From assembly GCA_035268685.1 (NCBI GenBank), contig DATFKK010000172.1:1-64000 (forward strand): a DNA stretch of 64,000 nt, written 5' to 3'. Under the pieces are notes generated by a model. The model ran no database searches. It was given only the letters and a program-made list of their open reading frames with translations, and had not been told where the DNA came from. This stretch comes from Candidatus Krumholzibacteriia bacterium (GTDB taxonomy: Bacteria > Krumholzibacteriota > Krumholzibacteriia > JAJRXK01). Positions 617 through 17,766 of this stretch are shown one piece after another. Each line of letters opens with the position of its first letter. Position 1 is the stretch's first letter. The position numbers and the translations under genes were made by a program.

Positions 617-2710
617 TCAACGACCCTCTTCGGGCCCCGACGGCTCCTCGATCACGAACTCCAGCGACCGCTCGAGGGTGACGTCGCGTACCTGGTCGAC
701 GACGGTCACCACGAGCTCGTGCGCACCCGGCTCGAGCTCCCGCAGGTCGAGCCCCGTGCCCTTGACCACCACACCGTCCGGCGAGATGCCCGTCCGCTCC
801 TCGACGAACTCGTCGATGCTGGGCGTGCCCTTCGTGCTGCCGATCGGGGTCGTACGGTAGGAGATCGAGAACCGGGTCCGATCGTCGGCCGCGAGACCCA
901 GATCGTACACCTCGAAGTACACGAACAGCCGGTCCTGCGCGCGCGGGATCACGCGCTCGGGCAGGGGAAGGACGACGTTCGCGTAGCGCACGAACTCCGT
1001 GGGCACGTCGGTGTCGACGGCGTAGTCGTCGAAGCTGACACCGAGCATCAGAGCGCTCATGGTCGGTGACGCGTCGTCGGGACGACCACTGACGACGAAG
1101 CGCAGGTCGATCCAGCGACGGGCACCGGTGAGCCTGTCCTCGCCCTCGAGTGCGAGACGGTAGCGCCCGGGTTCCACGTCGAGACCGACGCGTGCGGTGC
1201 GTGCCGGTCGGAGCCCGTGGGCGCGGCGTTCGGGATCGAACGCCGCGAGGAGGGACTCCCGATCCCGCGACGTGTCGGCGAGAATCGTCCCCTGGTCGAG
1301 CCGGTTCTCCGCGGTGTCGAACAGCGCCCACTGCAATTCGACGTCGCCGAGATCCTCGACGCTCCTGTCCGTGGATTCGTCGGACGCGACGACCGCCATC
1401 GAAAGGATCGCCGAGGCCCGCTCGCGCGTGCTCGCGAGCACCGCCATCTCGAGCGCGAGGTCGAAGGGCGAGGACCGGCCTCCGCGAGAGAACTGGAGCG
1501 GTTTGTCGCTGCGCAGGGCTTCGAACCGCGGCCTGGACTCCGGCGCGACGGCCCAGTCCCGCAGGTAGTTCTGGTCCACGAAGTTCAGACTGAACGTCGA
1601 CGGACCGCGGACCCAGGTCCAGACCCAGGTCCGGTAGTTCCCTCGCGTCCACCGGCGGTTCAGCGAGGGCGGCCTGAAATCGTCGCGGACGGCGACGATG
1701 GGCCGGATGTCGGGCGTGAACTCCGACGTCACGGTCGGCCGTCCCCAACGGACCCAGGCGTCACCGGTCTCGGTGTCCCAGCCCGGGGTCCCGGACTCGG
1801 CGTCACCCCACAGGGCGTCGGCCTGCAGGAGCCGGCGCCAGAACTCGAGACGATGCCCGTTGCTGCGACGCACGGGATCCGGATCGATCCGATCCCAGTA
1901 GCGCGCCACCGTGGCCACGTCGCCCTCGCGGACACCGGGCAGCCAGCCACCTCCGTGCTCGAAGACACTCGCGAGTTCGTCGGGCACCGCCGCGAGTGCC
2001 TGACCGAACAGGTTCTCCGACAATTCCTGCGTCGAAGCTTCGTAGGACAACAGCCCCGCCCTGAGCAGGAGGAGCGGAAGAGCGACCGCGCGACCCTCCT
2101 CGAGCGGAGGCAGATGGTCGAGGGCTGTGTCGGGCCGATCCGCAACGAGGCACACCGACGCCAATGCCGCCGAGTGATCCGCCGAGCCGGGGGCGAGTTC
2201 GGTGGCACGTTTCAGATGATGGATCGCCGCGCCCACGGGCTCGGGCTTCAGGTGGCGGCGGGCATCGAACCAGTACGCGAAGCCCAGCGCGTAGTGGTAC
2301 GCCGCCTGCTCCTCGAAGTGCTCGCGCGCTGCTTCCAGCGCGGCGATCGCCCCCGCCCCGTCGCGTGCCCGATGGTGGGCACGCATCGTCCACAACAGCA
2401 CGTCGAGTCGATCCGGAGCGCGCTGCGCCAGGCCCTCCAGGATGTCAACCGCGATCGACCGATCCTCGGAACGTCCCGTACAGAGGTTCAGAACGGCGAA
2501 CTCGAAGTCCTCGTGGACGGTCCGGAAACCCTGTGAATGAAGTCGAGCGGAAAGCGCGTCGATGCGTGCCAAGACGTCGTCGCGCGGAAGGTCTTCGGCC
2601 GGGTGCCAGATCCGGGGCGGACGCGGGCTGATTCCCAGGACCGATGCGCCCGCGGAAACCGCGGACAAAAGGACCAGGACCGCCACGACGATCCGTACCG
2701 TGCACTGCAT
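617..2710 (-). CDS. Exported GWxTD-domain protein with TPR-like N-terminal half
   Basis: 697 residues. The N-terminus is a hydrophobic Sec signal (residues 1 to about 24, ending near SAGAS). An alpha-helical, TPR-like region runs to about residue 250. At about 305-325 lies the diagnostic GWxTD block: ...RRLLQADALWG... then GWDTETGDAWVRWGRP, where Glu replaces the usual Asp. A beta-rich C-terminal half follows, probably binding or scaffolding in the periplasm. GWxTD proteins are typical of FCB-group and related bacteria, and their function is not established. Start at ATG 2710 is supported by AAAGGGA 8-9 bases upstream; longer upstream extensions in frame are shadow sequence under the divergent LysR gene. 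The gene converges on the dehydrogenase remnant at its 3' end. Confidence -1.
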   Translation of the reverse strand: MQCTVRIVVAVLVLLSAVSAGASVLGISPRPPRIWHPAEDLPRDDVLARIDALSARLHSQGFRTVHEDFEFAVLNLCTGRSEDRSIAVDILEGLAQRAPDRLDVLLWTMRAHHRARDGAGAIAALEAAREHFEEQAAYHYALGFAYWFDARRHLKPEPVGAAIHHLKRATELAPGSADHSAALASVCLVADRPDTALDHLPPLEEGRAVALPLLLLRAGLLSYEASTQELSENLFGQALAAVPDELASVFEHGGGWLPGVREGDVATVARYWDRIDPDPVRRSNGHRLEFWRRLLQADALWGDAESGTPGWDTETGDAWVRWGRPTVTSEFTPDIRPIVAVRDDFRPPSLNRRWTRGNYRTWVWTWVRGPSTFSLNFVDQNYLRDWAVAPESRPRFEALRSDKPLQFSRGGRSSPFDLALEMAVLASTRERASAILSMAVVASDESTDRSVEDLGDVELQWALFDTAENRLDQGTILADTSRDRESLLAAFDPERRAHGLRPARTARVGLDVEPGRYRLALEGEDRLTGARRWIDLRFVVSGRPDDASPTMSALMLGVSFDDYAVDTDVPTEFVRYANVVLPLPERVIPRAQDRLFVYFEVYDLGLAADDRTRFSISYRTTPIGSTKGTPSIDEFVEERTGISPDGVVVKGTGLDLRELEPGAHELVVTVVDQVRDVTLERSLEFVIEEPSGPEEGR

Positions 2711-2804
2711 GTCTCGTCCCTTTGGAGCGAGGAGGCCAGGCATCGAGGGGCCTCGCGCGCAAGCTACCGATCGCGGCCCCCTGCGCGCAAGCGGCGGTCG
2801 CGGG

Positions 2805-2833
2805 GGGACAGCATCGCCACGACGATCTATATT
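2805..2833 (+). promoter_or_regulatory. Possible sigma70-type promoter for the LysR gene
   Basis: GGGACA (2805-2810), a 17-base spacer and TATATT (2828-2833) lie 33 bases before the LysR start, in the 156-base divergent gap with the GWxTD gene. The -10 box is strong and the -35 box is a partial match. The AT-rich patch stands out in very GC-rich sequence. The same patch could serve the minus-strand gene. Confidence -1.
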
Positions 2834-2866
2834 CGGGGCATCGTCGTCGAGTCCGGCGTGTGCACC

Positions 2867-3835
2867 ATGCCCCGTTCCCCGAGGCCTCCCGTGTCCGAGA
2901 TCCCTCCCGCCCGCCAGTTGCTGCCCAGCACGGCCATGCTGCTCGCCTTCGACGCGGCCGTGCGCACGGGCAGCTTCACGGGTGCCGCGCGCGAGCTGAA
3001 TCTGACCCAGGGCGCGGTGAGCAAGCAGATCATCGCGCTCGAGGAGCAGCTCGGTGTCGACCTCTTCGACCGCTCCGGACATCGCGTGGAGCTCACCCAG
3101 GCCGGACGGGTGTACGCCCGCGACGTGCGCGCCGCCCTCGACCTGATCCTCACCGCGTCGATGCGCGTGATGAGCGATCCGCAGGGTGGCGCGCTCAACC
3201 TGGCCGTGTTGCCCACCTTCGGCACGCGGTGGCTCATGCCGCGCCTGCCCGGCTTCCTGGCCGAACACCCCGGCGTGACCGTGCACTTCCACACCAAGCT
3301 GTCGCCCTTCGACTTCCGGCTCGAGCACCTCGACGCCGCCATCCACTTCGGCACGTCGACCTGGCCCGACGCCGAGAGCACCTACCTCATGGGCGAGGTG
3401 ATCCTCCCCTTCGCCTCGCCGCAGTTCGTCGCCCAGCATCGGATCGAGTCACCGGAGGACCTGACGCGGGTGCGCCTGCTGCACATCTCGACGCGGCGGA
3501 GCGCGTGGGAGGACTGGTTCCGCGCGCAGGACGTCGCCGCGCCGAGCACCGAGGGACTGTACTTCGAGCAGTTCCTCACCGCGGCGCAGGCCGCGGCCGC
3601 GGGGCTGGGTGCCGTGCTGCTGCCACGCTTCCTGGTGGGCGGCGAGGTGGAGCGCGGCGAGCTCGTGCCGATCCTCGATCGGCCGTTGCGCAGCGAGAAG
3701 GGATACTACCTGGTGGTCCCCCACGACCGCGCGGGGTGGGCACCGGTGGTCGCGTTCAAGGAATGGCTGCTGCGGACGGTGGACGAGGACCGGCGCTCGC
3801 GGGGAGGCGCTCCTCGAGCCACCACCGAGGACTGA
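2867..3835 (+). CDS. LysR-family transcriptional regulator, GcvA-like
   Basis: 322 residues from ATG 2867. GTG 2891 gives 314 residues and has a similar weak ribosome site. The N-terminal winged helix-turn-helix (residues about 22-82) has the typical LysR pattern: [46 protein letters not shown]. It is followed by a linker helix and a periplasmic-binding-like effector domain ([25 protein letters not shown] onward), closest in style to GcvA/AmpR regulators. It converges on the aminomutase/thiolase operon with only 10 bases between stops, so it is a plausible but unproven regulator of that operon. Its effector might be an amino acid or CoA-pathway intermediate; that is inference only. Confidence -1.
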
Positions 3836-3845
3836 GCCGCGCCCC

Positions 3846-4228
3846 TCACCGCGGAGCGTCGATCACCATCATCGTCGCCGACGCGCGGGCCACGACGCGA
3901 TCGTCGTCCTCCGCACGCACCCATCCCTCGACGTAGGCCGTGCGGCGTGTGCGATGCACGACCGTGCCACGAGCGACCAGCCGTTCGCCGCGGGCCTTGC
4001 CGAGGAAGTTGACCTTCATCTCGAGCGTGGCGGCCGACAGGCTCTCGCCGCCGTCGGCCATGAAGAAGGAACGGGCCATGGCCGTGTCCAGCAGACTGCA
4101 CAGCACGCCGCCGTGCACGATGCCGCCGATGTTCAGGTGCCGCGGCTGCACGTCGAGCTCGACCACGTAGTCGTCGCCGTCGAAGCCCCGTGGGTCGAGG
4201 CCGAGATCGACGATGTGGTGGACTTCGC

Positions 4229-4232
<4 letters not shown>
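3846..4232 (-). CDS. PaaI-type hotdog-fold acyl-CoA thioesterase
   Basis: 128 residues, the normal size for a PaaI/YdiI hotdog protein. The active-site region [20 protein letters not shown] (about residues 38-57) has the HGG loop and following helix of the family. The strands after it ([30 protein letters not shown]) are typical. I chose GTG 4232 because it overlaps the thiolase stop codon (GTGA, 4229-4232), which implies translational coupling as the last gene of the operon. The role is probably hydrolysis of an acyl-CoA made by the upstream thiolase, or rescue of CoA from dead-end esters. The substrate cannot be read from sequence. Confidence -1.
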
Positions 4233-5446
<1,214 letters not shown>

Positions 5447-5473
5447 CGTCGTCCTCCCGTACGGCCGAAGGCG

Positions 5474-6850
5474 TCAACCCACCTTGGTCAGGGGCTGGTA
5501 CGCCGAACGGGCCAGCTCGCTCGTCCGGGCGTCCCGGACCTTGCACAGTCCACCCAACAGGGTGTCGGCGAACTCGTCGATCTCGGCCCTGGTCATCGCC
5601 GTCGACAGCATGCCCGAGGCGGTGTTGATCATCATGATGCCGTTGTGGAACAGGTGGTCCAGCAGGATCTCCAGTCGCTCCGATCCCATGGGCCCCACGT
5701 AGTTGGTCCGGTAGTCCTCAGGCGGCTTCGGCTTGAGGTGGATCCGGAACATCGATCCGGTCCCGGTGACGCAGGCCGGAATGTCGGCGATCTCCATGAC
5801 CTCGCGGATCGTTCGCCGCGTGTACTCGCCCAGGACGTTCAGCCGCTCCACCGCGTAGCAGTCCAGTAGCTTCATGGTGGTCAGCCCGGCCGTCATCGAG
5901 ATCGGGTTGGCCGAGAAGGTTCCCGAGTGCGGGAACAGCAGCTCGGGCGCACTCGGATCCATGACGTCCATGATCTCCTTCTTGCCGGCCAACGCACCGA
6001 TCGGGAATCCGCCACCGATCATCTTGCCGAGCGCCGTGAGGTCCACGTCGACCGGATAGCGGTCTTGGGCTCCCCCGACGGCGACACGGAAGGTGATCAC
6101 CTCGTCGAAGACGAGCAACGCTCCGTTCTCGCGCGTCCAGTCCCGCAGGGTGTTCACGAAGTCCGTCGTGGCCGGGATCATACCGATGCGGTGCGGGACG
6201 GGGTCGATGAGCACGCAGGCGATCTCGCCAGCGTGCTGATCCAGGATCGCCTTCGCGCGCAGCGGATCGTTGAAGGGGATGATGATCACGTCCCCGAGAG
6301 CGCTCGCGGGGGTGCCGCGCGCGACCGGCGTGCTCACCGGGTGGTCCAGGGTCCCCCAGTTGGAAGGGTTCGAAGTCTGGCTCACCTCGGCGTAGTCGTA
6401 GAGGCCGTGGTAGGCGCCCTCGCACTTGGCGATCTTCGGGCGGCCGGTGTAGGCACGGGCGGCCTTCAGGCAGCTCATGACGGCCTCGGTGCCCGAGTTG
6501 ACGAAGCGGATCTTCTCGAAGCCAGCCGCACGATCGACCATGAACTCCGCGAACAACAGCTCCTGCTCGGTCGCCATCGTGAACGCGGTGCCCCGCCGGA
6601 GTTGCTCGGACACCGCGTCGACCACTGCCGGATGGGCGTGGCCGTGCACCAGACTGGCCATGTTGTTCGCGAAGTCGATCCGGCAGTTGCCGTCGGCGTC
6701 CCACACCCGGCAACCCTCGCCGCGGACGGCGTACTGCGGGTGTGGCTTACGGAGCACGGTGTTGCGGCTGACGCCGCCGGGGAGGACTCTCTTGGCGCGT
6801 TCGAAGAGCTGCGCGCTACGCGGGTTGTCGTCGCCTTTGTCCTTGTCCAT
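5474..6850 (-). CDS. Class III PLP aminotransferase of the GSA-aminomutase / beta-transaminase group
   Basis: 458 residues. Fold-type I motifs are clear: FVNSGTEAVMSCLKAARAYTGR (PLP phosphate loop), GAYHGLYDY, DEVITF (the PLP-ring Asp), LTALGKMIGGGFPIGA with the Schiff-base Lys, and HSGTFSANPISMTAG. It resembles HemL, but the same subgroup contains the beta-amino-acid transaminases (beta-phenylalanine aminotransferases). The neighbourhood, a radical-SAM aminomutase and a 3-oxoacid CoA-transferase, suggests action on a beta-amino acid to give a beta-keto acid. It could also be the genome's glutamate-1-semialdehyde aminomutase; I cannot exclude that from sequence. ATG 6850 is preceded by GGTGA. 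Confidence is high for the family and low for the substrate. Confidence -1.
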   Translation of the reverse strand: MDKDKGDDNPRSAQLFERAKRVLPGGVSRNTVLRKPHPQYAVRGEGCRVWDADGNCRIDFANNMASLVHGHAHPAVVDAVSEQLRRGTAFTMATEQELLFAEFMVDRAAGFEKIRFVNSGTEAVMSCLKAARAYTGRPKIAKCEGAYHGLYDYAEVSQTSNPSNWGTLDHPVSTPVARGTPASALGDVIIIPFNDPLRAKAILDQHAGEIACVLIDPVPHRIGMIPATTDFVNTLRDWTRENGALLVFDEVITFRVAVGGAQDRYPVDVDLTALGKMIGGGFPIGALAGKKEIMDVMDPSAPELLFPHSGTFSANPISMTAGLTTMKLLDCYAVERLNVLGEYTRRTIREVMEIADIPACVTGTGSMFRIHLKPKPPEDYRTNYVGPMGSERLEILLDHLFHNGIMMINTASGMLSTAMTRAEIDEFADTLLGGLCKVRDARTSELARSAYQPLTKVG

Positions 6851-6921
6851 CACGTCACCAGCCGGTAGGGCCGGTCCAGGATCGGACGTCGACCGCGACA
6901 CCGTGCCGCGGCCGTGCCCGG

Positions 6922-7602
6922 TCACGTCCGGGACAGCTCGTCTCCCTCGATCAGTGGAGCTCCGGTGCGTTCCCGGACCTCCTCCATGGTCACCCCCGGA
7001 GCCAGCTCTGTGACGACGAGCCCGTCCCTGGTCACGTCGATCACGGCGAGGTCGGTGGTGATCCGGTCCACCACGCGCTTGCCGGTCAGGGGATAGGTGC
7101 ACTCGGTGACGATCTTCGGCTCGCCGGTCTTCGTCGTGTGCCTGGTGATCACGTGGATGGTCTTCACGCCGGCGACGAGGTCCATCGCTCCGCCGACGGC
7201 AGGGATGGCGTCGGCCGCTCCGGTCGACCAGTTCGCCAGGTCACCGTTCTGTGCGACCTGCATCGCGCCGAGCACGCAGACGTCGATGTGGCCACCGCGG
7301 ATCATGGTGAAGCTGTCGGCGTGGTGGAAGTAGGCCGCCCCCCGGATCGCGGTGACCGGCTTCTTGCCGGCGTTGATCAGTTCCGGGTCCTCCTCGCCGG
7401 GCTCCGGGTCGCGGCCCATGCCCAGCAGGCCGTTCTCGACGTGGTAGACCACCTCGCGGCCCTCGGGGATGAAGGCCGCCACCAGCTCGGGCATTCCGAT
7501 GCCCAGGTTCACGTAGCTGCCGTCGGGAATGTCCTGCGCCACGCGTCGGGCCATCTCCTCGCGGGTCCAGCCGACGACTCCCTGTTCCTCGGTCGCGCTC
7601 AT
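6922..7602 (-). CDS. pcaJ: 3-oxoacid (3-oxoadipate type) CoA-transferase, subunit B
   Basis: 226 residues, usual length for the beta subunit. The catalytic Glu lies in the conserved HVENGLLGMGRDP block (near residue 50). Further PcaJ/ScoB signatures are GEEDPELINAGKKPVT, YFHHADSFTMIRGGHID and GDLANWSTGAADAIPAVGGAMDLVAG. With subunit A it should transfer CoA from succinyl-CoA to a 3-oxo acid through a gamma-glutamyl-CoA thioester on this subunit. The start overlaps the subunit A stop by four bases (ATGA, 7599-7602). The 71-base gap to the downstream aminotransferase is short enough for one transcript. Confidence -1.
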   Translation of the reverse strand: MSATEEQGVVGWTREEMARRVAQDIPDGSYVNLGIGMPELVAAFIPEGREVVYHVENGLLGMGRDPEPGEEDPELINAGKKPVTAIRGAAYFHHADSFTMIRGGHIDVCVLGAMQVAQNGDLANWSTGAADAIPAVGGAMDLVAGVKTIHVITRHTTKTGEPKIVTECTYPLTGKRVVDRITTDLAVIDVTRDGLVVTELAPGVTMEEVRERTGAPLIEGDELSRT

Positions 7603-8309
7603 GGGTAGCGCACCCCCTCCCGCACCAGTGCAGACTCCTGCAAGGGCTCGGCCACCCGGACGACGCGGTCGACGAAGATCCCGGGCGTGACCACGCACTC
7701 CGGATCGATCTCGCCGGCCTCGACGATCTGTTCGGTCTGGACGATCGTCGTCCCGGCCGCGGTGCACATGATCGGCGCGAAGTTCCGCGCCGTTTTGTTG
7801 TACAGCAGATTGCCGTAGCGGTCGGCCACGCGTGCCTTGACCAGGGCGAAGTCGGCCCGCAGACCCCGCTCCATGAGGTAGGTCCGGCCGTCGAACTCGC
7901 GGGTCTCCTTGCCCTCCTCGAGCACCGTCCCCACGCCGGTGGCCGTGTAGAAGGCGGGGATCCCCGCGCCGCCGGCACGGATGCGCTCGGCGAGCGTGCC
8001 CTGGGGCACCAGCTCGAGTTCGACCTTGCCGGCCCGGTACTGCTCGGGGAAGACCTTCGAGTTCGCCGTGCGCGGATACGAGCAGATCATCTTCGCCACG
8101 CGCTCGTTGTCGATCAGCGCGGCCAGACCGACGTGGCCACTGCCCGTGTTGTTGTTGACCACGGTGAGGCCGCGCGCTCCCTGGTCGATCAGGGCGTGGA
8201 TCAGCTCGATCGGACTTCCGGCCTCGCCGAATCCACCGATCATCACCGTCGCCCCGTCCGGAATGTCGGCCACGGCCTCGGCCACCGAGTTCCATCGCTT
8301 GTCGATCAT
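7599..8309 (-). CDS. pcaI: 3-oxoacid (3-oxoadipate type) CoA-transferase, subunit A
   Basis: 236 residues, full length. The glycine-rich CoA-binding loop GATVMIGGFGEAGSP (residues about 19-33), TVVNNNTGSG, ELELVPQGTLAERIRAGGAGIPAFYT, GKETREFDGR and NKTARNFAPIM are standard for PcaI/ScoA. It forms the heteromer with the overlapping subunit B. The combination with a PcaF-type thiolase completes 3-oxo acid activation and thiolysis. The absence of aromatic ring-cleavage genes leaves open whether 3-oxoadipate is the real substrate. Confidence -1.
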   Translation of the reverse strand: MIDKRWNSVAEAVADIPDGATVMIGGFGEAGSPIELIHALIDQGARGLTVVNNNTGSGHVGLAALIDNERVAKMICSYPRTANSKVFPEQYRAGKVELELVPQGTLAERIRAGGAGIPAFYTATGVGTVLEEGKETREFDGRTYLMERGLRADFALVKARVADRYGNLLYNKTARNFAPIMCTAAGTTIVQTEQIVEAGEIDPECVVTPGIFVDRVVRVAEPLQESALVREGVRYP

Positions 8310-8363
8310 CTCGCCTTTCCGATCCTCGGGACGGCCGGGGCCGCTCCCCCGGCCGGAGTGCCG

Positions 8364-9956
8364 TCAGACGTCGAGCGATTCGCGCGCCGACGCCAGCGCG
8401 CGCGCCAGCTCCGCCTCGATCTCGCGCAGTTCCTCACGGAAGAAGAACTCGTCGCCCTCGAAGGGCGGCAGCAGGTCCACCGTATTCTGCTCCTCGTCGT
8501 ACTGCGCGAGGAAGACCCTGTCCATCCATTCCATGTTCCGGCCCTCGGTGAACTTCAGCGCGAAGGCCTGCTTGCCGTTCACCTCGCAGGTGCCGAGGAT
8601 CGAGATCTTGCCCGCCGACGAGGTCATCGAGATGTAGCGCGTGGGTCGGTAGATCGACGCCAGGTTGCGATGGATCCGGCTGGCGACCTCGTTCACCTCG
8701 GCCAGCGGCGTGGTGAAGTAGTGGTGCTCACCGGTCGGACGCGCGCAGTACATCGAGTGGAAGCCGATGTGCATGGTCCCGAGCAGGTTGGCCAGGTCGA
8801 TCCAGTTCTGTGCGCTGCGCTCGACGTCGGTGCGGCCGTCCGGGCCTTCGAACAGGCTCACGTGCCGCATGATCGGGCTCTGGCTGCGCAGCACCACGCC
8901 GTGGCGCTGCAGGCGGCGGATCGCCGCGATGGTGCTGGGATTGAGGATCTCGCGCGGCGTGCTGAAGTGCGCCATCCAGGCCAGCTGGATGCCGGCGGCG
9001 TGCAGCTCGTCGAACAGGGCGAGCATCTCGTCGTACTCCGGCGAGAGCACACGCTCGGGGCTGTAGCTGAGCAGGCGCGTGCCCAGGCGGATCGCACGCA
9101 CGTGCAGGAAGTCGGGGTCACCCTCGAGCAGCGGCCGGGCGTACTCGCGCAGACGGCTCGCCGGCATGTAGCCCGCGTCGCCGCCGGTGATCAACATGTC
9201 GGTGATCTCGGGGTGCGTGCGCACGTAGCGGTGGACCTGCTCGATCTCCTTCTGCAGGAACATGTCCTCGTCGCCGCGCACCTGCGCGTGGCGGAAGCAA
9301 TAGGTGCAGAAGGCGAAGCAGTTCTGCGTCGAGGTGTCGAAGATCAGCGCGCACTGCGGGTACTTGTGCTGGCTGCCCTCGAGGAATTCCATCTCGCCTT
9401 CGGCGTTCGTGAACAGCGGCTTGTTGAGCTGCTGGTTGCCGTCGTGCGGGTTGGTCGACTCCATGTAGTCGTCGAGGACCTGCTGGCGTTCCTCTTCGGT
9501 CGCCGCCGCCCGGGAGCGCTCGACCAGCTCCCGGCGCAGCATCCCCGGTTGCGGGAAGGTGAGCTGGAACAGCGAATCCGTGGCGAAGTGGTCCCAGTCG
9601 ATGCTGTTGAGCACGTGGCGCGTGACCATGAAGCGGTAGACGCGCACGAAGAGTTCGCGCTCCTCGACGTGACCGATGTGGATGCCGGCGTCCTCGAGGA
9701 CGGTCACCACCTCGCGCAGGCCCTCGAGGCCGCGGTACTGTTCCTTGTCGCGGAACAGGAAGGGACGCGTCTCGAGCAGGCCCGACGACTCCGGGTACTG
9801 GGCGTGCACCCGGCTCAGCAGACCCTGCGGCAGCAGGTCCTCGCGCTCGATGATCGCCCGGACCTCGTCGGAGTACCGGTAGCGATCGAGCATCCGGTCG
9901 ATGTCCTCACGGGTGACGGCGGCCGTGGTCGGGGCCATGGTCTCGGGTGCACTCAC
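8364..9956 (-). CDS. Radical SAM amino acid 2,3-aminomutase (KamA family), lysine-binding Asp residues not conserved
   Basis: 530 residues from GTG 9956, which has GGGGGA seven bases upstream; ATG 9938 has no such site. The radical SAM cluster motif CFAFCTYC (CxxxCxxC, near residues 211-218) is intact. It is followed by DMLITGGDA as in lysine 2,3-aminomutase. The PLP-Lys is probably in SSAGKISIL (near 447). In the Clostridium lysine enzyme two Asp residues hold the substrate epsilon-amine. The corresponding segments here read YCARPTG and YISMTSSAGK, without those Asp residues, so lysine is an unlikely substrate. The enzyme should move an amino group from C2 to C3 of an alpha-amino acid. It is first in the operon with the CoA-transferase, aminotransferase, thiolase and thioesterase. 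Confidence -1.
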   Translation of the reverse strand: MSAPETMAPTTAAVTREDIDRMLDRYRYSDEVRAIIEREDLLPQGLLSRVHAQYPESSGLLETRPFLFRDKEQYRGLEGLREVVTVLEDAGIHIGHVEERELFVRVYRFMVTRHVLNSIDWDHFATDSLFQLTFPQPGMLRRELVERSRAAATEEERQQVLDDYMESTNPHDGNQQLNKPLFTNAEGEMEFLEGSQHKYPQCALIFDTSTQNCFAFCTYCFRHAQVRGDEDMFLQKEIEQVHRYVRTHPEITDMLITGGDAGYMPASRLREYARPLLEGDPDFLHVRAIRLGTRLLSYSPERVLSPEYDEMLALFDELHAAGIQLAWMAHFSTPREILNPSTIAAIRRLQRHGVVLRSQSPIMRHVSLFEGPDGRTDVERSAQNWIDLANLLGTMHIGFHSMYCARPTGEHHYFTTPLAEVNEVASRIHRNLASIYRPTRYISMTSSAGKISILGTCEVNGKQAFALKFTEGRNMEWMDRVFLAQYDEEQNTVDLLPPFEGDEFFFREELREIEAELARALASARESLDV

Positions 9957-10312: not shown

Positions 10313-11056
10313 TCACCCACGTTCGCCCAGTCGGCGGGCGATCCACACGGTGCGAAACACTGCCGTACCCGTCGTGCCCACGGCGAGGACGGCCAGAACG
10401 CCGACGGTGAGCGCTCCCGTGTCCCGACCGAGGAGGAGGTGCGACAGCGTGGGATCGAGCACGGGACCGAGCCCGAGCAGCAACATGCGCTCGGCTCGCT
10501 GCAGGACGCCGAGCTTGCACAGCACCCCCAGGCTCTCTCCGCGCGCGCGGGCGTAGCTGACCATGAGCGAACCACCCAACGCGATCACCGCGAGGACCAC
10601 ACCGGGACCCGACCCGTAGAAGACCACCAGGCCGACGAACACGGCCAACTCCGCGAACCGATCGAGGGTGGAGTCGATGAAGGCGCCCGCGTCCGACACC
10701 AATCCACGGCGGCGGGCCACGTCCCCGTCGAGGACGTCGGCGATCCCACTCAGCAGGATCAGCGCCCCTCCGACCGGCAGATGGCCGAGGCCGAATGCCA
10801 CGCCCGACGCGATACCACCCGCAAGACCGAGAAGGTTGAAGACGAATGGGCTCGCCCCGGAAGCGAATGCCGCCCATCGCACCGGGCGCAGCGCCCAGTA
10901 GAACCAGTCGCGCACGAAGAAGCCGAGTACGAACGACCCGCCACGTCCCGTGGCGTCCCTCCCCCGGGCTCGGCCCGCAGCGCTGAAACGGTACGCCGCC
11001 ATGCTCAACAGCGAGAGTCCGACCAGGCTCGTCACGACCACGATCTCGGGTCTCAT
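10313..11056 (-). CDS. CDP-alcohol phosphatidyltransferase family membrane enzyme
   Basis: 247 residues. The family motif DG-x2-AR-x8-G-x3-D-x3-D is perfect: DGDVARRRGLVSDAGAFIDSTLD (near residues 107-129). Several hydrophobic helices surround it. These enzymes exchange CMP of a CDP-linked lipid or alcohol for another alcohol (glycerol phosphate, inositol phosphate, serine and others). The exact acceptor cannot be assigned. The start ATG overlaps the stop of the Tam41-like gene (ATGA, 11053-11056). That gene is predicted to make CDP-diacylglycerol, so the two probably act consecutively at the inner membrane. Confidence -1.
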   Translation of the reverse strand: MRPEIVVVTSLVGLSLLSMAAYRFSAAGRARGRDATGRGGSFVLGFFVRDWFYWALRPVRWAAFASGASPFVFNLLGLAGGIASGVAFGLGHLPVGGALILLSGIADVLDGDVARRRGLVSDAGAFIDSTLDRFAELAVFVGLVVFYGSGPGVVLAVIALGGSLMVSYARARGESLGVLCKLGVLQRAERMLLLGLGPVLDPTLSHLLLGRDTGALTVGVLAVLAVGTTGTAVFRTVWIARRLGERG

Positions 11057-12045
11057 CTCTCGTCTCCGGGCGACATGGACTCGCGGCGCGCGCGGCGCAA
11101 CGCGCGGAGCACGCGAAAGAGCTTCGGCCACAACAACACCAGCGGCCAGCGGCGTTCGGCCGGTCGGATCTCGAGTTCGAGACCGGTCCGTCGCCGCAGC
11201 TTCCGCACGATGTAGTCGAGCCAGTCGTCGTAGGTGAAGAGATATTTCGACCACCGCAACGTGGCACGGATTCGCGAGCGCCGGAAATACCACGCCCAGC
11301 GCAGGCGTGCCACCCGTGATACGGCGCGGGTCCGCACGAAGTGATCACCGGCGACGACCACCCCGTGTTCGGGTCCATGACGGCTGATCAGATCGCGATA
11401 GAGCGGCACGAGCTGGTGCTCCTGGGCGGAGAAGACCTCTCGGACCCGCTCCCCTCGTTCCGGCCGGATCTCGCCCGCGTACGAGACTCGCAGCATGTGC
11501 TCGCAGTAGGTGCGGGCGTCGAACTCCCGGGGTAGGTCGAGCGGAACCCAGCACAGCGTCTCCACCCGCGCACGCGTCACGGCGGTCATGAGCGATCGCA
11601 GCACGGCGGACTCACGGACGAAGACGAACTCGACCCGCTGGGACAAGCGGCCCTTGCAGAAATGATCCGCTGACCGGCTCGAGAGTGCCCTCTCCAGGCC
11701 TTCCCGGGTGACCACGAAGCACTTCGCTCCGGCCCCCTCCACCGCTGGAGGTCGCACCGAGATCACGTTCGGTGTCAACCAGCGGTTCAGCACGGATAGC
11801 GTGAAGGCCGATCGCTGGACCATCCCCCGCTCACGAAGCCTTCCGTAGAACGACCGCGTGCTGTCGACGACCACGAAGAGGTCGGTCGCACTGTGTGGAT
11901 CCGGCGATGTGCCGAGCAAGCGCGACCCGAAGAGGATCACGGCCGCGAGCGTCGGCCCCGATGCACGTGACAGGTACTCGACCTGGGCGGCGACTTCGTC
12001 CGTCGGAACGAAGAGCTCGGGCCGAGCTCGGGAACCGGGATCCAT
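11053..12045 (-). CDS. Tam41-like phosphatidate cytidylyltransferase (CDP-diacylglycerol synthase)
   Basis: 330 residues. An N-terminal nucleotidyltransferase core is visible (residues about 29-60: AAVILFGSRLLG, then DLFVVVD with the metal-binding acidic residue). The C-terminal half matches the mitochondrial Tam41/TAMM41 pattern: CFVVTREGLERAL, HFCKGRLSQRVEFV, VSYAGEIRPERGERVREVF, LVPLYRDLI. Tam41 converts phosphatidate plus CTP to CDP-diacylglycerol and is unrelated to bacterial CdsA. It sits between a PlsC-type acyltransferase (phosphatidate maker, 31 bases upstream) and a CDP-alcohol phosphatidyltransferase (user), which fits exactly. ATG 12045 is chosen because upstream in-frame codons run inside the acyltransferase. 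Remote assignment, made from memory of family motifs. Confidence -1.
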   Translation of the reverse strand: MDPGSRARPELFVPTDEVAAQVEYLSRASGPTLAAVILFGSRLLGTSPDPHSATDLFVVVDSTRSFYGRLRERGMVQRSAFTLSVLNRWLTPNVISVRPPAVEGAGAKCFVVTREGLERALSSRSADHFCKGRLSQRVEFVFVRESAVLRSLMTAVTRARVETLCWVPLDLPREFDARTYCEHMLRVSYAGEIRPERGERVREVFSAQEHQLVPLYRDLISRHGPEHGVVVAGDHFVRTRAVSRVARLRWAWYFRRSRIRATLRWSKYLFTYDDWLDYIVRKLRRRTGLELEIRPAERRWPLVLLWPKLFRVLRALRRARRESMSPGDER

Positions 12046-12076
12046 TCGACCGTCTCTCGTCAGGCAACCCGGCGAG

Positions 12077-12976
12077 TCATCGAGACCCGCCGGGTGCTTC
12101 GGAATCCGCCGACCCTCGCAGTCCGGCGAGACCCTCGACCATCTCCACGTGCATTCGATCGGAGAACTCCGAGGCCGTCTCCACGGTCGGGTCGAACCGG
12201 AACGGACCCAGACGGAGCGCCCGGCCCCGGACCCCGCCGATGTTCGACACGTAGTCGGCGAGCCGGCCGCAGCGCCAGAATCCGTCGACCACCAGTACGT
12301 GGGTCTCCCAGGTCCGCTGCTCGAGGATCGCCTCGAGCCCACCTCTCTTGAACGGTCGAATCCCGCCGTCCCGAGTGCGGTGTCCCTCGGGGAACAGCAC
12401 CATGGGCCGCTCGGCGGAGCGGGCCACTTCGGCGAGACGGTCGACCTGTTCCCTCGTTCGCGATCCCGGCTCCACCAACGGCATGTCGTACAGCCGCAAC
12501 ATGTGGGAAACCAAGGGAATCCCCCGAGCGTAGCGTCGTCTGGTCACGATCAGGGGCGAGCGATCCCGCACCGCGAGAATGCCGAGGGGTATGTCCAGCA
12601 GGGACTGATGATTCATGAGGATGAGCGTCCCGGTGGTACCTCGCACCGGCGCGGGCACCTCGATCCGGGCCCCGGCGACCACTCCGACCACACCTCGCAG
12701 GATCAGCGCGGCCACCCCGCGCATCCAGACATACAGGATCCGGTCACGGGCGCCCGGCCGAATCCGTATCCATCCAGTCACGATGATCCGTTGAATCAAG
12801 TCGGTGACAAGAAATATGATGGCCGCCGTGAAGAGTGAGAAGGCTCCGCGCAGTCGCAATGGTTCGATCCTGCTCCGAGCTCCGGAACTCGACGTCGAAT
12901 CAGGCCCTCTCCGGCACCGGTGATCGTCCTCGAGCGCCTCGTGCTTCCCACGAGAGAAGGATATTTGGGCAGCCAT
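12077..12976 (-). CDS. 1-acylglycerol-3-phosphate O-acyltransferase-like protein (PlsC family)
   Basis: Up to 299 residues. Two membrane-leaning segments (FSLFTAAIIFLVTDLIQ and VAALILRGVVGVVAG) precede the acyltransferase motifs NHQSLLD (HX4D) and LFPEGHRTRDGG (FPEGxR). Expected role: acylation of lysophosphatidate or another lysolipid to give phosphatidate for the downstream Tam41-like enzyme. The start is uncertain. ATG 12976 falls on the same CATG as the divergent synthase start at 12975. A TTG near 12861, with GCAGGA eight bases upstream, would give a shorter protein beginning at the first hydrophobic segment and would free about 110 bases for the divergent promoters. Confidence -1.
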   Translation of the reverse strand: MAAQISFSRGKHEALEDDHRCRRGPDSTSSSGARSRIEPLRLRGAFSLFTAAIIFLVTDLIQRIIVTGWIRIRPGARDRILYVWMRGVAALILRGVVGVVAGARIEVPAPVRGTTGTLILMNHQSLLDIPLGILAVRDRSPLIVTRRRYARGIPLVSHMLRLYDMPLVEPGSRTREQVDRLAEVARSAERPMVLFPEGHRTRDGGIRPFKRGGLEAILEQRTWETHVLVVDGFWRCGRLADYVSNIGGVRGRALRLGPFRFDPTVETASEFSDRMHVEMVEGLAGLRGSADSEAPGGSR

Positions 12977-14348
12977 GAAACCGTCAAGGATCCCCTCCCG
13001 ATACGAGCCGCCCGATTCGGCGGTCGAGTCCAACGCATCCGCCCCCGGCGCGGCCGGCCAGGACGCCGTACCGACGCCCGACGACGAGGATCGCGCGCGC
13101 CGGTTCCAGGACTACGACTACAGCAACTTCTACTCGGGCACAGGGAACGATCCCTTCGACATGCTCGAGCCCTTCGACGCGTGGTGGCAATGGGCGCGGC
13201 CGGCGGGGTACTACCAGTTCGGCCTCCCGATGCGCACGGCACCCGGAACGAGGGTGGACGTCGACGAGACCAAGAATCACACCACCCTGAAGGGTCTCGT
13301 GAACCTGGCCAGCTACAACTACCTGGGTCTCTCCTACCGCCCGGAGGTGATCGAAGCCTCGGTCGACGCCGTACGCAGGTACGGCCTCGGCGCGTCCGGG
13401 TCTCCGATCCTGAGCGGCAACCTCGATCTGCACGAACGGCTGCGTGAGAACCTCGCCCGCTTCAAGGCGAAGGAGGAGGTCCTGCTGTTCCCGTCGGGTT
13501 ATGCTGCGAATCTGGGACTCATCGCCGGCCTGATGCGCGCGGGAGACCTGGTGGTGGCCGACCAGTACTCGCACACGAGCATCATCGATGGAATCATCCT
13601 CTCACGCGCCAAGGCTCGATTCTTCCGCCACAACGACGCCGACGACCTGGACCGCAAACTCGGTCGCGCCGATGGCAAGAAGCTCGTGGTGGTCGAGGGC
13701 GTCTACTCGATGGACGGCGATCTCGCTCGGCTGCCCGAGATCGTGGAGGTCGCTCGCAAGCACGGTGCGCGCATCCTCATCGACGAGGCGCACTCCGGCT
13801 TCCTCTTCGGAGAGAACGGCCGTGGGGTCGCGGAGCACTTCGGCCTCGACGACGAGGTCGACATCCATCTCGGAACCTTTTCCAAGAGCCTCGGGGGCAT
13901 GGGTGGCTTCGTTGCGGGCTCGACCCAGCTCATCAATTATCTTCGGGGGTTCGCGCGTTCGCGTGTGTTCTCCTGTGCGATCGCCCCCGGCGTCGTGGCC
14001 GGACTCGACCGGGCACTCGACATCGCTCGCGCCGAGCCCGAGCTCCGGTTCGTGCTCCACGACAACGCCGACTTCCTCCGCAATCGTCTGAGAGACGCCG
14101 GGGTCGACGTGGGCCTGTCGGAGTCGCAGGTGATTCCGATTCTGATCCGCGACGACGAGCGGATCTTCTCGATCGTCGAGGACCTTCTCCACGAGGGCGT
14201 GTACCTGAATCCGGTTCGCTATCCCGCCGTGGGAAAACACCGATCGCGGGTGCGGATCTCCGTCTCGGCGGCTCACACGCGCGCCGAGCTGGCCGAAGCG
14301 GCCGATGTCATCACTCACGTGCTGCGCAGGTACGGGCTATGCAATTGA
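12975..14348 (+). CDS. Alpha-oxoamine synthase, serine palmitoyltransferase / KAPA synthase-like
   Basis: 457 residues. PLP-dependent family II aminotransferase fold: LASYNYLGLS, GASGSPILSGNLDLHERLRE, DEAHSGFLFGENGRG, and the Schiff-base Lys in LGTFSKSLGGMGGFVAG. An N-terminal extension of about 100 residues rich in aromatic residues (YDYSNFYSG, PFDAWWQWARPAGYYQF) is unlike biotin-pathway BioF and more like the lipid-making members. The enzyme condenses an amino acid with an acyl-CoA or acyl-ACP and releases CO2. It begins a five-gene operon with a lipid kinase, so I favour a long-chain base or aminolipid product. BioF and CqsA-like roles remain possible. The next gene starts 10 bases before this stop. 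Confidence -1.
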   Translation: MKPSRIPSRYEPPDSAVESNASAPGAAGQDAVPTPDDEDRARRFQDYDYSNFYSGTGNDPFDMLEPFDAWWQWARPAGYYQFGLPMRTAPGTRVDVDETKNHTTLKGLVNLASYNYLGLSYRPEVIEASVDAVRRYGLGASGSPILSGNLDLHERLRENLARFKAKEEVLLFPSGYAANLGLIAGLMRAGDLVVADQYSHTSIIDGIILSRAKARFFRHNDADDLDRKLGRADGKKLVVVEGVYSMDGDLARLPEIVEVARKHGARILIDEAHSGFLFGENGRGVAEHFGLDDEVDIHLGTFSKSLGGMGGFVAGSTQLINYLRGFARSRVFSCAIAPGVVAGLDRALDIARAEPELRFVLHDNADFLRNRLRDAGVDVGLSESQVIPILIRDDERIFSIVEDLLHEGVYLNPVRYPAVGKHRSRVRISVSAAHTRAELAEAADVITHVLRRYGLCN

Positions 14349-15001
14349 CGAAGTACAGGTTCTCGAACGCAATCAATGCCTTCTTCGAGATGCCGACCGA
14401 GACCGCGGCCGAGCTGTTGCCCGACCATCTCCAACCACTCGAGCTACGCCACCAGTCCTCGATCCTCGCGGTGACGGCGTTCCACTTCACCGAGAGCATG
14501 GTCGGCGACTACCACGAGGTCGTTCTCGCAGTGATCGTGCCCCCGATGGTCAAAGCCGCCGATGTCTTTCCGAAGTCGGCCTACTATCCCTTCGTCGTGG
14601 GGACCAGTACGTCGGCCTCTCGCGAGCATGCCATCGAACGGTGGCACCTCCCCCACTACATGGCCGACGTCCATGTCGACCTCGTAGAGAAGGATGGTAC
14701 CGTCGACGTCCGTGTCCGTGACGAAGACAGTCCGATCCTCGACTTCCGGATCACGGCACACAAGTGGTCGATCGTCGACCAGCTGTACCAGTGCTTCATG
14801 ACCGACGACTCGAATCGCTATCGGGTCGACATGCATCTGCACGGTCGCTTCACCGAACACGAAGACGAGCAAGGCCGACTCACGCTCCACGAGCATCCGA
14901 TGACCGAGCTGATCTTCGACCAGGACGTCGCGACACACCCGTTCCGCGAGATGTGGATGAAGGACGGGATGCAGGTCTTCGAAGAGCTGGAAACGATCTA
15001 G
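14339..15001 (+). CDS. Acetoacetate decarboxylase-like protein lacking the catalytic Lys
   Basis: 220 residues with the overall pattern of the acetoacetate decarboxylase (ADC-like) superfamily: LLPDHLQPLEL near the N-terminus, YHEVVLAVIVPPM, YYPFVVGTSTSASREHAIERWHLPHYMADVHVD, and FRITAHKW. In true decarboxylases the position after the Pro is the Schiff-base Lys (PKK or PKY). Here it reads LPHYMAD, so Lys is replaced by His and ordinary decarboxylation through an imine is unlikely. It may bind or modify a 3-keto lipid made by the preceding synthase; that is inference from a 10-base gene overlap and shared operon. Homology call moderate; function unknown. Confidence -1.
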   Translation: MQLTKYRFSNAINAFFEMPTETAAELLPDHLQPLELRHQSSILAVTAFHFTESMVGDYHEVVLAVIVPPMVKAADVFPKSAYYPFVVGTSTSASREHAIERWHLPHYMADVHVDLVEKDGTVDVRVRDEDSPILDFRITAHKWSIVDQLYQCFMTDDSNRYRVDMHLHGRFTEHEDEQGRLTLHEHPMTELIFDQDVATHPFREMWMKDGMQVFEELETI

Positions 15002-15030
15002 ATGATCGTGAGTACCGAGTCCGTCGCCTG

Positions 15031-15927
15031 ATGTCGGTCTTCGTGATCGTCAACCCTGCCGCCGGCCGCGGACGGCGCGAGGGCCGGATCGCCAGTCTTC
15101 GAGCGCTCCTGGAGCGCGCGTTGCCCGACCGACGAGAGGTCTTCACCACGGGCCCCGGCCAGGAAGCCGACCTCGTGGATCACGCACTCACCGAGGGCTA
15201 CGACACGATCGTGGCGATCGGCGGAGACGGCACGTGGAGCCTGGTCGCGGACCGCATTCTGAGATCGGGGCAGCGAGACGTGCGTCTCGGGCTGTTGCCC
15301 GCGGGCACGGGGAACGACTTCGGGAAGTCGCTGGGCATCACGTCCGATCGAAGCGAGCACGTGGTCCGGGCGATCGTCGAACGCCGAACGCGTCGGGTCG
15401 ACGTAGGGCGCGCCGGAGGGCGATACTTCCTGAACGTGGTGGGAGCCGGCTTCGACATCGCCGTGATCGACGATGCGGCCGGTCTGCCTTTCCTGCATGG
15501 TGACGCCCTGTACCGAGCCTCCGCGTTGCGTCAACTCTTCCGCTTTTCGGGTCTCCCGCTGGAGATCCACGCGAACTCCTGCCGGCCACTCGTACTCGAT
15601 CATCTCATGCTGGTGGTCGCCAACGCGAACTACTTCGGCGGATCGTTCCACATCGCGCCGCGTGCCCGACTCGACGACGGCCGTCTCGACGCCGTGAGCA
15701 TCGCCAATGGGGGTGCATTCGAGCGAGCCCGCCTCTTCTCACTCGTCGGCCGAGGGCGACACGAGGGACATCCCAAAGTGATCATCCAACAGGCCTCTCG
15801 CCTCGAGGTGCGGTCCGAGCCGGGTTGGCGCTACGAGATGGACGGCGAAGTCTACACGTGCGAGGGTGGGCGGCTCGAGATCGAGTCGGTTCCCGCCGCG
15901 CTCGAGATCTTCGTACCCGAGTTCTGA
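15031..15927 (+). CDS. Diacylglycerol / sphingosine kinase-family lipid kinase
   Basis: 298 residues, normal for bacterial DgkB/YegS-type kinases. It has the NAD-kinase-like catalytic domain: VIVNPAAGRGR at the N-terminus, the nucleotide-binding VAIGGDGTWSLV (near 60-72), LLPAGTGNDFGKSLG, then a beta-rich C-terminal lobe (FLNVVGAGFDIAV, HLMLVVANANYFGG, YEMDGEVY). It phosphorylates a lipid alcohol such as diacylglycerol, ceramide or a long-chain base. Position after the alpha-oxoamine synthase favours a long-chain base or keto-lipid derivative. ATG 15031 is 29 bases after the previous stop; the ribosome site is weak, which suggests coupling. Confidence -1.
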   Translation: MSVFVIVNPAAGRGRREGRIASLRALLERALPDRREVFTTGPGQEADLVDHALTEGYDTIVAIGGDGTWSLVADRILRSGQRDVRLGLLPAGTGNDFGKSLGITSDRSEHVVRAIVERRTRRVDVGRAGGRYFLNVVGAGFDIAVIDDAAGLPFLHGDALYRASALRQLFRFSGLPLEIHANSCRPLVLDHLMLVVANANYFGGSFHIAPRARLDDGRLDAVSIANGGAFERARLFSLVGRGRHEGHPKVIIQQASRLEVRSEPGWRYEMDGEVYTCEGGRLEIESVPAALEIFVPEF

Positions 15928-15976
15928 CTCGGGCCCGAGGGGGCGTGGCGCACGACACAGTGGAGGACGGAACGAC

Positions 15977-17212
15977 GTGAGAGCCGTGACCTTCGACGGA
16001 GCGATTCCACGATACCTGACCACGCGGGCAACTGGTCGGATCGCGTCGCGCTGGCTCTCCGGTCCCGGCCGCTGCACACGCCTGCAGGAGGTCCCGCTGC
16101 CCGCACTGCCGGCCGACGACTGGGTCCGGGTTCGCACTCGACTCGGAGGAATCTGCGGGAGCGACCTCGATCTGGTGCGGCTCGACGTCTCCCCTTCGAC
16201 CTCACCCTTCTCTTCGTTCCCCTTCGTCGTCGGACACGAGAACGTGGGCGTGATCCAGGAGGTCGGTCCGGCCGTGACCGGTCTCCGACCGGGAGAACGC
16301 GTGGTGGTGAATCCGCTGCTCTCGTGCGTGCCGCGCGGAATCGAACCGCCGTGCCGTCATTGCGTGGGCGGGCACCCCGCGCGCTGCCAGAACTTCACCG
16401 AAGGCAGGCTCCCGGCCGGAATGCTCCTCGGCACGACGCGATCACTCGGGGGGAGTTGGGGCGACGCCTACGTCGCCCACGTCAGCCAGGTGGTCCGAGT
16501 GCCCGAACAGGTCGGTGATCGAAGCGCGGTCCTGCTCGAGCCGCTCGCAACGGTGTTGTCGCCCGTCCTCGACCACCCTCCCGCCGCCGGTGAGCAGGTA
16601 CTGGTGATCGGGGGCGGCTCCATCGGTCTGCTCGCAACAGCCGCTCTCCGCACGGTCGCCCCCGAAGCCCGGGTCACCGTGCTCGCCCGGCACCGTTTCC
16701 AGGCCGAACACGCCGAACGCATGGGGGCCCATCACATCGTGGTGCCCCGCGACGCGGACGACTACTTCCGCTCGCTCTCGGACCTCTCGGGTGGTCGCCT
16801 GTTGCACCCCATCCTCGGCCCACGCGTCCACGTGGGTGGATTCGACCACAGCTACGTTTGCGTCGGGAACTCCGGGGCGGTCGACGACGCGCTCCGGTTC
16901 ACGCAGGCGGGCGGACACGTGGTCCTACTGGGCAACGTCTCGCGACTCCCGAAGGTCGACTGGACACCGCTGTGGATGAAGGAGCTCACGATCCGCGGCA
17001 GCCTCTGCTACGGTCACCATCCCCACGGCGGCACGACCCGGCACGCTTTCGACACCGCAATGCATCTGCTCACCGAGGGACTCCGCGACACGATCGATCC
17101 ACTCGTCACCCACGTATTCCCCCTCCGTCACTTCCGGGAAGCACTCGCGTACTCGATGTCCAGATCGCGGCATCGAAGTATCAAGGTGGCCTTCGACCTC
17201 ACCGAGCAATGA
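15977..17212 (+). CDS. Zinc-dependent medium-chain dehydrogenase/reductase
   Basis: 411 residues. Catalytic zinc ligands are recognisable in GGICGSDLDLVR (Cys, near 55) and VVGHENVG (His-Glu). A structural-zinc lobe with Cys residues follows (PPCRHCVGGHPARCQNF). The Rossmann motif is VLVIGGGSIGLLATA. C-terminal features (GGHVVLLGNV, LTIRGSLCYG) are typical of sorbitol or threonine dehydrogenase-like members. GTG 15977 has GGAGG ten bases upstream. In this operon it may reduce the 3-keto group left by the alpha-oxoamine synthase, a job usually done by short-chain reductases. Alternatively it makes a polyol head group. The substrate is not predictable from sequence. Confidence -1.
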   Translation: MRAVTFDGAIPRYLTTRATGRIASRWLSGPGRCTRLQEVPLPALPADDWVRVRTRLGGICGSDLDLVRLDVSPSTSPFSSFPFVVGHENVGVIQEVGPAVTGLRPGERVVVNPLLSCVPRGIEPPCRHCVGGHPARCQNFTEGRLPAGMLLGTTRSLGGSWGDAYVAHVSQVVRVPEQVGDRSAVLLEPLATVLSPVLDHPPAAGEQVLVIGGGSIGLLATAALRTVAPEARVTVLARHRFQAEHAERMGAHHIVVPRDADDYFRSLSDLSGGRLLHPILGPRVHVGGFDHSYVCVGNSGAVDDALRFTQAGGHVVLLGNVSRLPKVDWTPLWMKELTIRGSLCYGHHPHGGTTRHAFDTAMHLLTEGLRDTIDPLVTHVFPLRHFREALAYSMSRSRHRSIKVAFDLTEQ

Positions 17213-17766
17213 ACGCACTTCGCCGGGCTCTCTTCTCTCGGTTCGTCTGGATGCTCGTGGGCCTGTTCGCCCTGACGATTCTCGCGGACCTCTGGCTCGA
17301 TGCGGAAGGCGGCGCTTCGGTCGTGGTGGAGAGATGGGGAGTCTGGGCACCCATCGCCGCATTCCTGCTGAAGACACTCACCACGATGACACCGATCGGT
17401 GCCGTGGCGCTGGCCGTGTTCACCGGAGTGATCTTCCCCCTGTGGCTGGCGATCCTGATCAATCTCGCCAGTGGGATCGTCGGGGGCATCGGGATGTACT
17501 ACGTGTGGCGGCAAGGGAACCACGAGTTCGACCTACAGGCTCGTCTCGAGACCCTTCCCGGGTGGATGCGGCGCTACGCTGCCGACAACCTTCTGTTCCT
17601 GATCCTCTTGCGCTTCCTGCCGTGGGCAGGCGGCGGCCTCGCCGACATGCTGGCCGGCGCGCATCGCATCCCCCTGCGGACACAGGTCTGGAGCCTCGTC
17701 CTCGGGTACCTTCCCGGTTCGGTGATCTACGCGCTCATGGGCACCGGACTCCTCCGTCTGACCTGA
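17209..17766 (+). CDS. Small VTT/TVP38-type integral membrane protein
   Basis: 185 residues with at least four hydrophobic segments: FVWMLVGLFALTILADLWL, a re-entrant-like LKTLTTMTPIGAVALAVFTGVIFPLW, ILINLASGIVGGIGMYY, and SLVLGYLPGSVIYALMG. RFLPWAGGGLADMLAGA resembles the conserved loop of VTT-domain (DedA/TMEM41B-like) proteins, some of which move lipids between bilayer leaflets. The start ATG overlaps the dehydrogenase stop (ATGA, 17209-17212), so it is last in the lipid operon. Lipid transport across the inner membrane would fit but is inference. Confidence -1.
   Translation: MNALRRALFSRFVWMLVGLFALTILADLWLDAEGGASVVVERWGVWAPIAAFLLKTLTTMTPIGAVALAVFTGVIFPLWLAILINLASGIVGGIGMYYVWRQGNHEFDLQARLETLPGWMRRYAADNLLFLILLRFLPWAGGGLADMLAGAHRIPLRTQVWSLVLGYLPGSVIYALMGTGLLRLT

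Follow-up and report, generated by a model that had tools for sequence, protein, structure and literature searches.

A conserved gene block in two little-studied phyla, Krumholzibacteriota and Gemmatimonadota, appears, judging by its protein families, to have the means of making a sphingolipid-like membrane lipid along a different route from the established bacterial one, also in species without that established route. In the window (the whole 64,000 nt stretch of DNA analysed, from a 4.59 Mb genome that is 99% complete and is placed in Krumholzibacteriota by its closest named relatives) this block spans nt 10313–17766, and includes an alpha-oxoamine synthase (AOS) of the kind that starts long-chain base synthesis. 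We favour, at a confidence just short of even, the reading that the product of the module is a dedicated aminolipid, derived from the AOS reaction and carrying a phosphodiester head group. Its genes are as follows:

10313..11056, minus strand: CDP-alcohol phosphotransferase, a module-specific second copy, of inositol-phosphate type by similarity (Pfam PF01066, 2e-12)
11053..12045, minus strand: Tam41-type CTP:lipid-phosphate cytidylyltransferase-like protein, 330 aa (by profile and fold)
12077..12976, minus strand: PlsC-type acyltransferase (PF01553, 2e-14)
12975..14348, plus strand: AOS, in its own clade near SPTs (Pfam Aminotran_1_2, 2.6e-60)
14339..15001, plus strand: ADC-fold protein without the Schiff-base lysine (PF06314, ADC, 4.5e-9; fold match 2e-10)
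15031..15927, plus strand: DAGK/YegS-type lipid kinase (DAGK_cat, 4.8e-27, and YegS_C)
15977..17212, plus strand: zinc dehydrogenase with a weak likeness to threonine 3-dehydrogenase, accessory (ADH_N/ADH_zinc_N)
17209..17766, plus strand: VTT-domain membrane protein, accessory (PF09335, 5e-13)

The five consecutive plus-strand genes at nt 12975–17766 (AOS, ADC-like, lipid kinase, zinc dehydrogenase and VTT) are joined by a 10-base overlap, a 29-base gap, a 49-base gap and a 4-base overlap, in that order. The coordinates confirm this run and its junction lengths as given in the preliminary description of the region, and Pfam backs every family. The kinase has catalytic and YegS C-terminal domains that both score over their cut-offs, and carries a GGDG motif; an alternative start is possible at nt 15028. 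The true start of the PlsC-type gene is probably at or after nt 12859, within the frame listed. The best NCBIfam match of the CDP-alcohol phosphotransferase is archaetidylinositol-phosphate synthase (120 bits, below the cut-off).

Searching the genome collection for the AOS gave 21 close relatives, distributed over Krumholzibacteriota and Gemmatimonadota; four of the records are titled Gammaproteobacteria, yet carry a nearly identical module. With three further loci from the survey of the phylum, 24 other loci were compared (25 with the window). Nearly all of the 21 show the same order: one strand carries the CDP-alcohol phosphotransferase, the 330-aa protein and PlsC, the opposite strand the AOS, ADC-like protein and kinase. 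This six-gene divergent arrangement is found again in both phyla. The AOS and ADC-like genes are adjacent in 24 of the 24 other loci, and the kinase gene follows the ADC-like gene in all loci except L007 and L056. Only five of the 25 loci (the window, L006, L015, L055 and L025) have the dehydrogenase, and only two (the window and L006) the VTT gene. Thus, of the gene set that had been proposed as a unit, the AOS/ADC-like/kinase core stands, while the dehydrogenase and VTT genes are accessory. The conserved unit reaches leftward, across the divergent operon, to about nt 10313.

Gaps in the divergent operon lie mostly at contig ends, and three loci (L021, L024 and L025) are without the operon nearby. 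The genome of L021 has a Tam41-like gene at another place. At L024 and L025 the AOS, ADC-like and kinase genes stand without the divergent genes for Tam41 and the phosphotransferase, and no Tam41-like gene occurs in the genomes of these two loci; a PlsC-type gene still lies beside the AOS in L025, although the CDP genes are absent there. A ketone reductase gene is not present in most Gemmatimonadota loci. Two loci of this phylum (L009 and L018) have thioesterase and phosphopantetheinyl transferase genes downstream of the kinase, hinting at acyl-ACP. The viral contigs searched for the ADC-like family gave no match.

Of 80 Krumholzibacteriota genomes, the same seven hold members of the AOS clade (E<=1e-120), of the ADC-like family (E<=1e-20) and of the Tam41-like family of the 330-aa protein (E<=1e-6), and each of the three is confined to those seven. 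The coincidence of two independent 7-of-80 sets has p = 3e-10, a value that is overstated, as the genomes are related. The seven genomes are spread over three families, two of which also hold relatives without the module. PlsC and the kinase were left out of the counts, as their paralogues would blur them. One copy of a CDP-alcohol phosphotransferase, scoring 1e-24 to 1e-41, occurs in nearly all 80 genomes, and a second copy of module type is found only in module genomes, scoring below 1e-100 in six of the seven; in G077 only a fragment of the second copy is present, at the edge of a contig. Synteny and co-occurrence together rule out chance adjacency of these genes. The presence of inositol-phosphate synthase did not discriminate genomes by module. 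Canonical SPT is absent from six of the seven module genomes, and a search of them for bCerS gave no match in five and a weak one in another, so that the module stands alone. In Gemmatimonadota, an AOS that outscores that of the module was found only in G085 among the ten genomes tested. Two genomes of this phylum, G088 and G089, have AOS-ADC-kinase and no Tam41-like gene, showing that CDP activation is not universal.

The nearest solved proteins to the window AOS are SPTs, and it carries the SPT-type motifs SYNYLG and GTFSKS, as in the SPT of S. paucimobilis. The suggestion, made in the preliminary description, of an aminolipid or long-chain-base type pathway unlike that of Caulobacter and Bacteroides is supported. 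The PLP lysine lies in the GTFSKS motif, and the residues of the PLP site are conserved. Eight residues (H200, D270, H273, S303, K304, Y114, N115 and R427) are invariant in 22 members of the family, and the Ser following K304 varies in two of them. The window AOS falls below every NCBIfam SPT cut-off (NF047600, 359/640; NF047599, 341/500; NF047603, 271/670), and its top NCBIfam match is, by a hair, BioF (TIGR00858), at 360 bits compared to 359 for SPT, also below the cut-off (426). An LCB2-like identity for the N-terminal extension was set aside, the likeness being only marginal (SPT2, E 0.09). In the AOS tree, the module family comes together as a single clade (100/99), next to one of known SPTs in which the SPT encoded on contig C183 of the same genome falls. 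Topology tests reject the joining of the module family to SmSPT alone (p 0.0006), while a grouping with all SPTs (p 0.12), and likewise one with either BioF or Kbl, passes the AU test (p 0.12–0.15 over these groupings), and so the amino-acid substrate is not fixed by the tree. As the kinase needs a hydroxyl group, serine would be favoured over glycine or alanine.

The host genome holds four AOS genes and one marginal match. The case named in the preliminary description in which the window gene would be a biotin enzyme (clustering with BioF in a genome that has bioABD and no other bioF) does not hold: a different AOS gene, on contig C85, adjoins bioA, bioD and bioB (bioA and bioB scoring above curated cut-offs) and itself scores 392 bits, just below the BioF cut-off of 426. 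With this gene beside bioADB, and with lipid genes around the window AOS, identity of the latter with BioF was rejected. On contig C183, another AOS forms an operon with a GNAT (bCerS-like) protein, an SDR (CerR-like) protein and a PAP2 protein, the last weakly resembling phosphoinositol dihydroceramide synthase. By family and arrangement this is a canonical-looking ceramide operon, and as it holds a canonical-looking SPT, the window AOS is an additional one in this genome.

The structure model of the ADC-like protein (pLDDT 91.6) matches the ADC superfamily (E 2e-10), and all 24 matches of the fold search at E<=0.001 are ADC or ADC-superfamily enzymes. A phmmer search of the protein against the PDB gave no match and its profile gave noise only; two annotated ADC-family proteins were likewise without a match. 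The lysine that follows a conserved proline in the ADC family is the catalytic Schiff-base lysine. The P-K pair of three annotated ADC-family proteins is replaced here by P105-H106, the position having been taken from motif alignment to these annotated proteins and not to a solved ADC, and His106 is present in 22 of 22 members. With a histidine invariant at the Schiff-base position, this protein, first described as acetoacetate-decarboxylase-like, is unlikely to be an ADC-type decarboxylase. A classical decarboxylase was rejected as a candidate on the missing lysine, and decarboxylation through a Schiff base is improbable. Many His, Glu and Arg residues are nevertheless invariant, so that an enzymatic role is possible.

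A profile of 15 members of the 330-aa family found the Tam41 chains 6ig2 and 6ig4 as its best PDB matches (E about 0.006). The Pfam family Tam41_Mmp37 (PF09139) matches 14 of the 15 (best 5e-6), with the window protein under the Pfam cut-off (17.1 bits vs 24). The model of the window protein (pLDDT 86) matches bacterial Tam41 (7ecd) with E 3.4e-9 and TM 0.56/0.66, other nucleotidyltransferases being far behind. The 330-aa protein is therefore predicted to be Tam41-like, weakly by sequence and strongly by fold. Bacterial Tam41 is able to make CDP-DAG (PMC11646218). The host genome encodes an ordinary CdsA on contig C82, and with this and a housekeeping phosphotransferase present, the CDP genes of the module are not needed for ordinary phospholipids. 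The preliminary description had set the plus-strand genes apart as divergent from a CDP-lipid operon; they are divergent, but the operon co-occurs with the synthase and most probably belongs to the same pathway.

From the family and fold identities, gene order, co-occurrence, AOS motifs and the lost ADC lysine, we infer a pathway, in every chemical step, substrate and product, as follows. The AOS would join an amino acid, most likely serine, to a long acyl thioester, giving a 2-amino-3-keto long-chain base. The ADC-fold protein would then deal with that ketone by a mechanism without a Schiff base and, where the zinc dehydrogenase occurs, the 3-keto group could be reduced in the reverse of threonine dehydrogenase/Kbl chemistry. 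Phosphorylation of the base by the DAGK-type kinase would yield an analogue of lyso-phosphatidate, which the PlsC-type enzyme would acylate to a ceramide-1-phosphate-like analogue of phosphatidate. The Tam41-type enzyme, with CTP, would convert this to a CDP-lipid, and the module's CDP-alcohol phosphotransferase would add a polyol phosphate, perhaps inositol phosphate. Phosphatidate logic applied to an amino base would account for the kinase, PlsC, Tam41 and dedicated phosphotransferase genes travelling with the AOS. Against this reading stand the AOS scores under the NCBIfam SPT cut-offs and a tree that does not put the AOS within known SPTs, the lack of a ketone reductase gene at most Gemmatimonadota loci, L007 and L056 without a kinase after the ADC-like gene, and G088 and G089 without a Tam41-like gene. 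That all of this holds together, as a complete sphingoid-type lipid route by glycerophospholipid logic, proceeding via a CDP-activated aminolipid (a CDP-ceramide analogue), with a Tam41-type enzyme acting on an amino-lipid phosphate and an ADC fold recruited without its lysine, is a tentative proposal with the balance somewhat against it.

The strongest rival is that the locus represents two operons and two lipids: neighbouring pathways regulated together from a common promoter region, in which the minus-strand operon makes a special glycerophospholipid from phosphatidate and the plus-strand genes yield a long-chain base, or the phosphate of one, as a separate product. This we regard as unlikely, if less so than the other alternatives. 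Glycerolipids are the usual substrates of the PlsC, Tam41 and CDP-alcohol phosphotransferase families. The loci L024 and L025, with AOS-ADC-kinase but neither Tam41 nor phosphotransferase genes alongside, and the genomes G088 and G089, with AOS-ADC-kinase and no Tam41, keep this explanation alive. Against it, AOS, ADC-like and Tam41-like genes occur strictly together in seven of 80 genomes, and the PlsC-type gene remains beside the AOS where the CDP genes are absent.

A less probable explanation is that the product of the AOS is a signal or a secondary metabolite of the alpha-aminoketone type, as with CqsA or PKS-linked AOSs, and that the lipid genes only modify or export this product. Related plasmid AOSs of Thioclava and Methylocystis do sit in PKS-type clusters, and the tree allows the module AOS more than one deep placement. 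However, PKS, NRPS, regulator and export genes are all missing from the conserved core, and its genes for a kinase, PlsC, a Tam41-like protein and a CDP-alcohol phosphotransferase point to a membrane lipid. The canonical-looking SPT/bCerS-like/CerR-like operon on C183 raises the question of whether the window AOS is a second SPT that supplies the known ceramide pathway, with bCerS and CerR encoded at another site of the genome. This is improbable given the six module genomes without canonical SPT and the five without a bCerS match, and other SPT-like AOSs are mostly missing from the Gemmatimonadota module genomes as well. For a biotin enzyme there is the first place of BioF in the NCBIfam list, set against the score below the BioF cut-off, the other AOS beside bioA/bioD/bioB and the lipid gene context, which leave this explanation with very little probability.

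Surveys of bacterial sphingolipid capacity rely on SPT, bCerS and CerR. Should the product of the module be a sphingolipid-like lipid, producers among Gemmatimonadota and Krumholzibacteriota could go unnoticed in such surveys. A Black Sea survey set aside homologues of SPT that fell outside its SPT-like clade, judging that they probably do not serve sphingolipid synthesis (PMC11334938). A liponucleotide-activated aminolipid would, if true, open a chemical route to amino-phospholipids that is new, and would provide a testable function for these bacterial Tam41 homologues and for lysine-less ADC-fold proteins. The part of the literature that was searched held no CDP-activated aminolipid route and no use of the term CDP-ceramide, and nothing joining Gemmatimonadota, bacterial sphingolipid and SPT; such absences are weak evidence.

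In Caulobacter the pathway runs through SPT, bCerS and CerR, and the ceramide kinase is CpgB (PMC10331486). The module has in common with it an AOS of the SPT kind and a lipid kinase of the DAGK family. It differs in that its AOS forms a separate clade, and in having PlsC-type, Tam41-type and CDP-alcohol phosphotransferase genes and no bCerS, CerR or ACP genes. The inositol sphingolipid genes of Bacteroidota (BT1522-1526 type) encode a PIP synthase and a PAP2 transferase. The CDP-alcohol phosphotransferase of the module, likewise in a lipid cluster, resembles the BT1523 model, the one of this set that was compared, at 94 bits and so far below the cut-off of 350; in contrast to this type, the module has no inositol-phosphate synthase or PAP2 gene, and CDP activation is here proposed on the aminolipid itself. 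With the CDP-DAG synthase Tam41 (mitochondrial, and bacterial 7ecd) the 330-aa protein shares the fold and a weak sequence profile, but identity is 12–15%, and the module protein is the genomic partner of an AOS. The pairing of an AOS with a zinc dehydrogenase weakly resembling Tdh recalls Kbl/Tdh threonine catabolism, but the AOS motifs are SPT-like, the dehydrogenase is optional and lipid genes surround it. The PKS-derived sphingolipids of PfSgaAB represent another non-canonical bacterial route based on an AOS (PMC12134224); the module has CDP-lipid genes and no PKS, and a non-canonical AOS-based sphingolipid route would be common to both.

The lipid kinase gene of the module is followed by an additional gene pair in one Gemmatimonadota branch:

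L009 (module locus), 12967-14152: 4HBT thioesterase and phosphopantetheinyl transferase genes, after the kinase gene
L018 (module locus), 6004-6992: the same pair, after the kinase gene

The presence of these two genes hints at acyl-ACP as substrates in this branch. Four MAG records named Gammaproteobacteria (L011, L013, L016 and L017) carry a module nearly identical to the Gemmatimonadota one, and their names are probably wrong. In L007, an arylamine N-acetyltransferase-type gene (PF00797; 3680-4507) faces the acetoacetate-decarboxylase-like gene at the expected place of the kinase. At about 10940-11040 of L056, a stretch of N breaks up the decarboxylase-like gene of genome G074, and a kinase gene was not found downstream of it in this locus.

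Ahead of its catalytic domain, the alpha-oxoamine synthase (AOS) of the window shows a marginal match to eukaryotic SPT subunit 2 (13092-13349; E 0.09). Plasmids of Thioclava (L038) and Methylocystis (L039) encode an AOS with a similar N-terminal region, embedded in a PKS-type cluster common to both that also contains ACP, AMP-binding, PPTase and PEP/pyruvate-binding genes. This cluster possibly specifies an AOS natural product not yet described.

Another group of genes in the window looks like lysine or amino-acid fermentation:

4229-9938, minus strand: thiolase, class III aminotransferase, two CoA-transferase subunits and a gene judged KamA-like by eye (Pfam match absent at 1e-8)

Just two CDP-alcohol phosphotransferases (PF01066) were found in the window's genome, on contigs C28 and C172, and both resemble inositol-phosphate types more closely than they do PgsA or PssA, suggesting an unusual phospholipid make-up. 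The same genome carries a canonical-looking sphingolipid operon:

Contig C183 (L029), 2507-6844: SPT, GNAT bCerS-like, SDR CerR-like and PAP2_3 proteins

Its PAP2_3 protein bears a weak likeness to phosphoinositol dihydroceramide synthase, and its SPT scores 499.6 bits against model NF047600.
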